In this document: positions 56,659 through 57,054 of the stretch, in pieces
How the letters are laid out: each line of letters starts with the position of its first letter
Position numbering within the stretch: position 1 is the stretch's first letter
From: Pseudomonadota bacterium
Lineage (GTDB): Bacteria; Desulfobacterota; Binatia; Binatales; Binataceae
DNA length: 64,000 nt
Direction of reading: 5' to 3'
Assembly (NCBI GenBank): GCA_021325355.1
Contig: JAJPHI010000020.1
Location: forward strand, 124,001 to 188,000
Notes under the pieces: generated by a model
Database searches by the model: none
Told to the model about the DNA's origin: nothing
What the model saw: only the letters and a program-made list of their open reading frames with translations
Made by a program: the position numbers and the translations under genes

Positions 56659-56674
56659 TCCCTGGGCTTGAGCA

Positions 56675-56707
56675 GCAAGGGGCGCGCCGATACGGCGCGC
56701 CCCTTGC
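56675..56707. terminator. strong bidirectional terminator hairpin
   Basis: Perfect 14-bp stem GCAAGGGGCGCGCC / GGCGCGCCCCTTGC with loop GATAC, 16 bases after the LLM stop. Confidence 0.75.
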
Positions 56708-56994
56708 CCTTCCTGATCCGCGGATTCAGCTCCGCGCCGTCGATTTCATAAGTCCAAACCTCGGTTTTCTCGAGCGCCCGCGGCCCAGGACCGTTCACGG
56801 TTGTGCCAGGGCCGTTCTCGCGGCCTTTTCAAGCGACCACTTCAGCGTGCCGCGGCGCGAAACCGCCGTGGCGCGGCCCCGGTAATCACTTCCAAACCCC
56901 TTTGTCAAGGATGGGTTGCTCGCGCGTAACCCGAAATCTGGGCATAAGCCAAAAATTCCTGGGGATAGCTGACGCTGGCGAGACGGCCCCCGGA

Positions 56995-57010
56995 TGTTTC
57001 ACGTGAAACA
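56995..57010. promoter_or_regulatory. parS centromere site (ParB-binding)
   Basis: TGTTTCACGTGAAACA is an exact 16-bp palindrome and equals the widely conserved bacterial parS consensus bound by ParB/Spo0J. The symmetry extends to 18 bp (56994-57011). It is in the long noncoding spacer, not inside a gene. In most bacteria parS sites cluster close to oriC, so this stretch is probably origin-proximal. I noticed no second copy in the window; parA and parB are not here. Confidence 0.85.
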
Positions 57011-57054
57011 TGCCGCCCCGCGCCAGTCCGTCGCTTCTCCGCATACCCGCCCCC

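Follow-up and report, generated by a model that had tools for sequence, protein, structure and literature searches.

The parS site and the module around it

The window, by which we mean the whole 64,000-nucleotide stretch analysed here, is 94% coding, and its second longest gap is a 396-bp intergenic region (56659–57054, from gene calls, without strand) between two convergent genes, a luciferase-like monooxygenase gene on the left (PF00296; 55555–56658, plus strand) and a DUF2333 gene on the right (PF10095; 57055–57984, minus strand). This region contains an exact copy of the 16-bp parS consensus, TGTTTCACGTGAAACA, at positions 56995–57010 (core, 56996–57009), and the symmetry extends to an 18-bp palindrome, ATGTTTCACGTGAAACAT, at 56994–57011, to which no strand is assigned. 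It is the only parS match in the window at up to three mismatches, and shuffled versions of the window led us to expect 0.05 such matches, which rules out a chance match. An earlier note on this DNA, which had described a perfect parS with 18-bp symmetry in a long noncoding spacer and considered a coding accident unlikely, is borne out in these respects; judged by sequence identity, the site is almost certainly a parS. The same note had placed a strong terminator beside it. A strong 15-bp GC-rich hairpin does follow the luciferase-like gene (~56675–56707, plus strand), outside the module described below, but it lacks a T-run, is not among the entries of a terminator scan of the window, and lies ~290 bp from the parS.

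The site is part of a rigid module of ~110 bp that was detected at 11 of the 12 dispersed parS loci of this genome. The module consists, in order, of GTCAAG, two TGTGGATA-type boxes (box 1, AAACYTGTGGATA, and, ~21 bp further on, box 2, TTCCTGTGGATA), and parS, 35–41 bp from the start of box 2. In the window, a TGTCAAG motif (56903–56909), a weak match to box 1, ATCTGGGCATAAG (56936–56948), and box 2, TTCCTGGGGATA (56956–56967), all lie on the plus strand, with box 2 located 20–21 bp from box 1 and 40 bp from the parS core. The distance from the start of GTCAA to box 2 is 52 bp at this site, as against 51 bp for the remaining modules that the box-2 pattern picked out. When all 25 box-2 matches with at most one mismatch were inspected, GTCAA was present 51–52 bp away in each of the nine linked to parS and in none of the 16 others (p = 5e-7), and the exact sequence TTCYTGTGGATA occurs three times genome-wide, each time beside a dispersed parS. 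The spacer columns of the modules were 30% identical (27% expected from composition) versus 66% for the conserved columns. Unrelated spacers between rigidly placed motifs indicate that the modules are old or constrained, and recent transposon copies in this genome are ruled out.

The module boxes resemble DnaA boxes, although their consensus is conserved toward AGGAA and not toward the TT side of the DnaA box. Within 300 bp of the sites in this genome we counted eight such boxes versus 0.66 expected; the enrichment was specific to this genome, with none in genomes G001 and G021 or genus g15, whose sites also show the skew flip described below. The AT fraction at the modules was 0.42–0.45 versus 0.37 in the intergenic background, and no strong AT-rich unwinding element was found at them. 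The single dispersed parS without a module (L048; contig C14, position 187421) is located ~270 bp upstream of smc and adjoins a strongly AT-rich stretch; it possibly serves ParB control of smc or represents a different type of site.

Distribution of parS and the partition machinery

The window genome (G000) is a fragmented metagenome assembly of 3.36 Mb in 35 contigs, estimated to be 95% complete. It contains 24 exact copies of the 14-bp core GTTTCACGTGAAAC versus ~0.003 expected, which rules out chance as the origin of the set. Contig C19 begins with a main cluster of nine parS, which fall within 3.5 kb surrounding rsmG-parA-parB, and also carries dnaA, 30 kb from that cluster. The 15 others, all perfect, are distributed over 12 dispersed loci on contigs C1, C6, C14 (two loci), C19 (at 175 kb), C20 (three), C25 (two, including the window site), C26, and C32, and three of these loci are pairs of parS 30–45 bp apart. 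All 15 are intergenic whatever the orientation of the neighbouring genes; a role as a transcriptional operator was rejected, as the flanking genes can be convergent, divergent, or codirectional and the CTTGAC of the sites has no matching −10 element.

This genome encodes one ParB, one adjacent ParA, and one SMC, in agreement with the ParABS system that the earlier note had taken the site to imply. ParB (TIGR00180, E = 9e-49) has ParB_N and HTH_ParB domains and is canonical by its motifs (LGRGLEAL and GERRLRA); its start, LGRGLEALIP, corresponds to a ParA-activating N-terminus and not to a Noc-type helix. No second ParB paralogue or Noc was found in this genome. ParB binding at the dispersed parS is very likely. 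By analogy with the family, ParB from the ori-proximal parAB operon would load onto the window parS with CTP and from there spread, bringing in ParA and SMC as it does at other parS, so that the window site would be a ParB-nucleation site within a chromosome-wide set.

To place the sites on the chromosome, we enumerated every contig order and took lower bounds on distance (half chromosome, 1679 kb). Under any order, at least one dispersed site is at least 845 kb from parAB, at least six of the 11 dispersed loci on contigs other than C19 are separated from parAB by more than 10% of the chromosome, and the window site, on C25, is at least 102 kb away. The ori-proximal location that is usual, though not strictly defining, for parS is thus not that of the window site, and the earlier note's placement of the window near the origin is not supported, as parAB with its nine parS and dnaA all lie on C19. 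That note had also held that many random matches far from the origin would speak against its reading; scattered matches do exist, but they are perfect, intergenic, embedded in modules, and situated at local GC-skew minima, and are therefore not random.

The system shares with chromosomal ParABS of the Spo0J/ParB family the identical 16-bp consensus, the canonical parAB beside rsmG, and the nine-site cluster there, but differs from it by 12 further loci, at least one of which is 0.85 Mb or more from parAB. In known systems, the vast majority of parS lie within the ori-proximal 20% of the chromosome (PMC7022226), and extra parS are tolerated only in a region of ~600 kb that surrounds the native one (PMC7333895, PMC5815017). 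Like Noc-binding sites (NBS) in Firmicutes, the predicted ParB-family binding sites are scattered over the chromosome; unlike them, their sequence is that of parS and not NBS, and the genome has, in place of a Noc paralogue with a membrane-targeting N-terminus, a sole ParB with a ParA-activating one. The parS-like sites by which SGI1 exploits plasmid ParABS (PMC10954446) likewise lie outside the native partition locus, but that case involves an integrative element and a plasmid, whereas here the sites lie in gene-free chromosomal repeats or modules of 60–180 bp.

Strand asymmetry at the parS loci

Read along the plus strand, GC skew turned from negative to positive at all 13 parS loci (the 12 dispersed loci and the main cluster), irrespective of contig orientation, and the mean profile changed sign no more than 1 kb from the site. 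The steps measured 0.10–0.29 at parS loci versus −0.06 to +0.03 at parS-free control loci (p = 2e-6), in a skew survey that covered the parS-free contigs in part, excluding C17, and C20 over less than its full length. At third codon positions, skew rose across the site from −0.313 to +0.089 in plus-strand genes and from −0.091 to +0.267 in minus-strand genes, a shift of 0.36–0.40 on both strands with gene orientation balanced; between genes it rose from −0.094 to +0.087, and AT skew at third positions tracked gene strand only. The equal shift on both strands rules out gene orientation as the cause. The skew minima at the dispersed loci are independent of gene strand, as at an origin, and the asymmetry is of the replication type, not the transcription type. 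The main flip of this genome is at the parAB cluster and not at dnaA; there is no exact TTATCCACA beside dnaA (L181), unlike in genomes G007, G015, G021, and G023. A dif search of this genome with a proteobacterial pattern gave no match.

The window itself has a local skew minimum at 58.6 kb, which, together with the perfect parS, would fit the earlier note's view of an ordinary ori-proximal site marking the vicinity of oriC. We consider this very improbable, since C19, with dnaA, parAB, and nine parS, is a separate contig at a distance of at least 102 kb and 11 other loci carry equal sites, so that it is already contradicted for the set. The note had proposed to check the GC-skew minimum; a local one does exist here, but the other 11 dispersed loci and the main cluster flip as well.

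On contig C25, examined over all 277 kb, the skew has a sawtooth form, with its two largest upward steps (0.14 and 0.21) at its two parS and a linear fall between them (r = −0.93). On C19, the skew is ~0.2 beside parAB and dnaA, reaches 0 by 140 kb, and jumps anew at the 175-kb parS. Such a sawtooth could be a relic of past rearrangements, or of a lone origin that shifted from module to module, with one origin active today; skew decays slowly, local minima do arise from rearrangements (PMC4403523), and sites turn over between species, as described below. This explanation nevertheless appears quite improbable: inversions would produce sharp positive-to-negative flips equally often, whereas 13 of 13 flips go one way, which rules out inversions as their source, the largest opposite step on C25 is 0.093 as against 0.14 and 0.21, the skew declines linearly between sites, and the modules are intact.

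A sawtooth of upward skew jumps separated by linear declines is also a feature of multi-origin archaeal chromosomes and eukaryotic skew N-domains. The present case differs from these in being bacterial, in its DnaA/ParABS setting, and in that initiation at its sites is a prediction from sequence. With their two TGTGGATA-type boxes at fixed spacing and the skew minimum, the modules also recall the DnaA-box clusters of oriC, datA, and DARS; in contrast to those, they are many per chromosome, have two boxes only, include parS, and lack an AT-rich element and adjacent replication genes, and the boxes are absent in other genera.

The module, with its GTCAAG, two DnaA-box-like repeats, and parS, sits at the centre of a divergent strand asymmetry. 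The simplest cause of the observed reversal would be bidirectional replication starting at each module in part of the cells, each module then acting as a secondary origin-plus-centromere. The dispersed parS, their modules, and the change of skew at each site are what we observe. From these we favour, somewhat short of an even chance, the reading that the dispersed parS nucleate ParB and either mark a centre of divergent asymmetry or turn into one, secondary origins of replication being the simplest form of such a centre. An origin role, with initiation at the dispersed sites as the cause of the skew change, is an inference that we likewise put forward with slightly less than even confidence. 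More tentative is the proposal that about a dozen origin-centromere modules, combining parS with initiator-type boxes, exist on one chromosome, so that replication and ParABS/SMC segregation would start together. A functional chromosome with more than one natural origin is not known to us from bacteria, which gives secondary origins a low prior. Also against them are the restriction of the DnaA-box enrichment to this genome although sites elsewhere flip too, the box conservation toward AGGAA, the absence of a strong AT-rich unwinding element at the modules, and the fragmented assembly. Skew minima do not prove origins and can mislead, and as of 2015, no bacterial chromosome was known to have two functional origins (Gao 2015, PMC4403523).

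The dispersed parS might instead be extra loading sites for ParB and SMC, or have a Noc-like or anchoring role, without initiating replication, in which case the skew would stem from another parS-centred process or from selection on polar DNA motifs. ParB-parS is a known SMC loader (PMC7022226), the window genome has a single SMC and a single ParB, and parS is the sole element shared by the four genera in which skew steps were seen. Third-position shifts of 0.36–0.40 on both strands, however, are what replication produces, and the LGRGL of the ParB N-terminus is ParA-activating and not of the Noc type. It also counts against such loading sites that, to our knowledge, no SMC or ParB process leaves single-stranded DNA or strand bias. 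We regard this explanation as unlikely, though less so than the fossil and ori-proximal ones.

Turnover of parS positions in related genomes

Among the 148 genomes of the class that we compared, only members of the window genome's family have more than three exact cores (24 and 10 in genus g1, 3–29 in g15, 3–19 in g7, and 1 and 16 in g10). Dispersal thus extends to three other genera of the family, often inside lineage-specific repeats, which in genome G021 and genus g15 are 60–143 bp long and 87–96% alike. Near-identical copies and insertion polymorphism, the traits of mobile repeats, are seen in g15 and G021 and not in the window genome, where the spacers are 30% identical. Between genomes G015 and G038, whose aligned regions are ~90–95% identical, only three dispersed positions are common, and G038 carries a 179-bp segment with parS where G015 holds 10 bp. 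The window genome and its congener G001 had no position in common among the site-carrying loci compared. These alignments indicate that individual parS positions come and go but that dispersal itself is maintained. Loss may accompany gain, as TGTTTCACGTGGAACA in G015 (C28:92921) is probably the decayed counterpart of an intact parS in G038 (L207).

Several further arrangements were seen in these relatives. In G001 (L137–L144), two to four parS are clustered per locus as the variant GTTTCACGCGAAAC, beside AAACTTGTGGA and GTCAAGGRTGAAAYCCTTCAC motifs, an arrangement that is probably related to the module of the window genome. In g15 (L152–L159 and L203–L213), the parS repeats lie amid very abundant intergenic REP-like repeats (GCAGGGGTGACCCCTGCACCC... 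and GTTAAG). An imperfect palindrome, AAGGATGAAATCCTT, occurs near dispersed parS in two genera (right flank of L169 in G021; L141 and L142 in G001).

Skew changes of the same sign were found at 12 of 15 loci in G021 and as positive steps at eight of eight in G001, and weakly in g15 and G023. In G015 and G038, the mean step was 0.074 at conserved positions and −0.003 at unshared sites (p = 0.0015). Since a step is present at the former and absent at the latter, skew seems to accumulate once a site is in place; this speaks for the site as the cause of the divergence and against its settling at one that already existed.

These data also bear on the idea that parS is a passenger of MITE-like mobile or dispersed repeats, mostly neutral or selfish and without a chromosomal role. 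The similar repeats around the g15 and G021 sites, the 179-bp segment of G038, and the mere three shared positions would all be in keeping with it. The idea seems improbable to us nonetheless, since the unrelated spacers and rigid motifs and spacing in the window genome point to old, constrained copies, all 24 cores are still perfect, the skew step is found at old sites and not at new ones, and in Caulobacter and Pseudomonas, additional parS remote from the native site carry a cost (PMC5815017, PMC7333895). Under the more tentative proposal of about a dozen origin-centromere modules, the presence of skew at old sites and its absence at new ones suggests that a newly inserted parS would turn into an origin in the course of evolution.

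The window site is a real parS that belongs to an unusual multi-site system; it does not mark the main origin. The clustering of parS near the origin still lacks an explanation (PMC7333895), and a lineage that keeps perfect parS chromosome-wide is a natural exception to the ori-proximal rule. If the skew minima are indeed origins, this chromosome would be a naturally occurring example of multiple origins in a bacterium.
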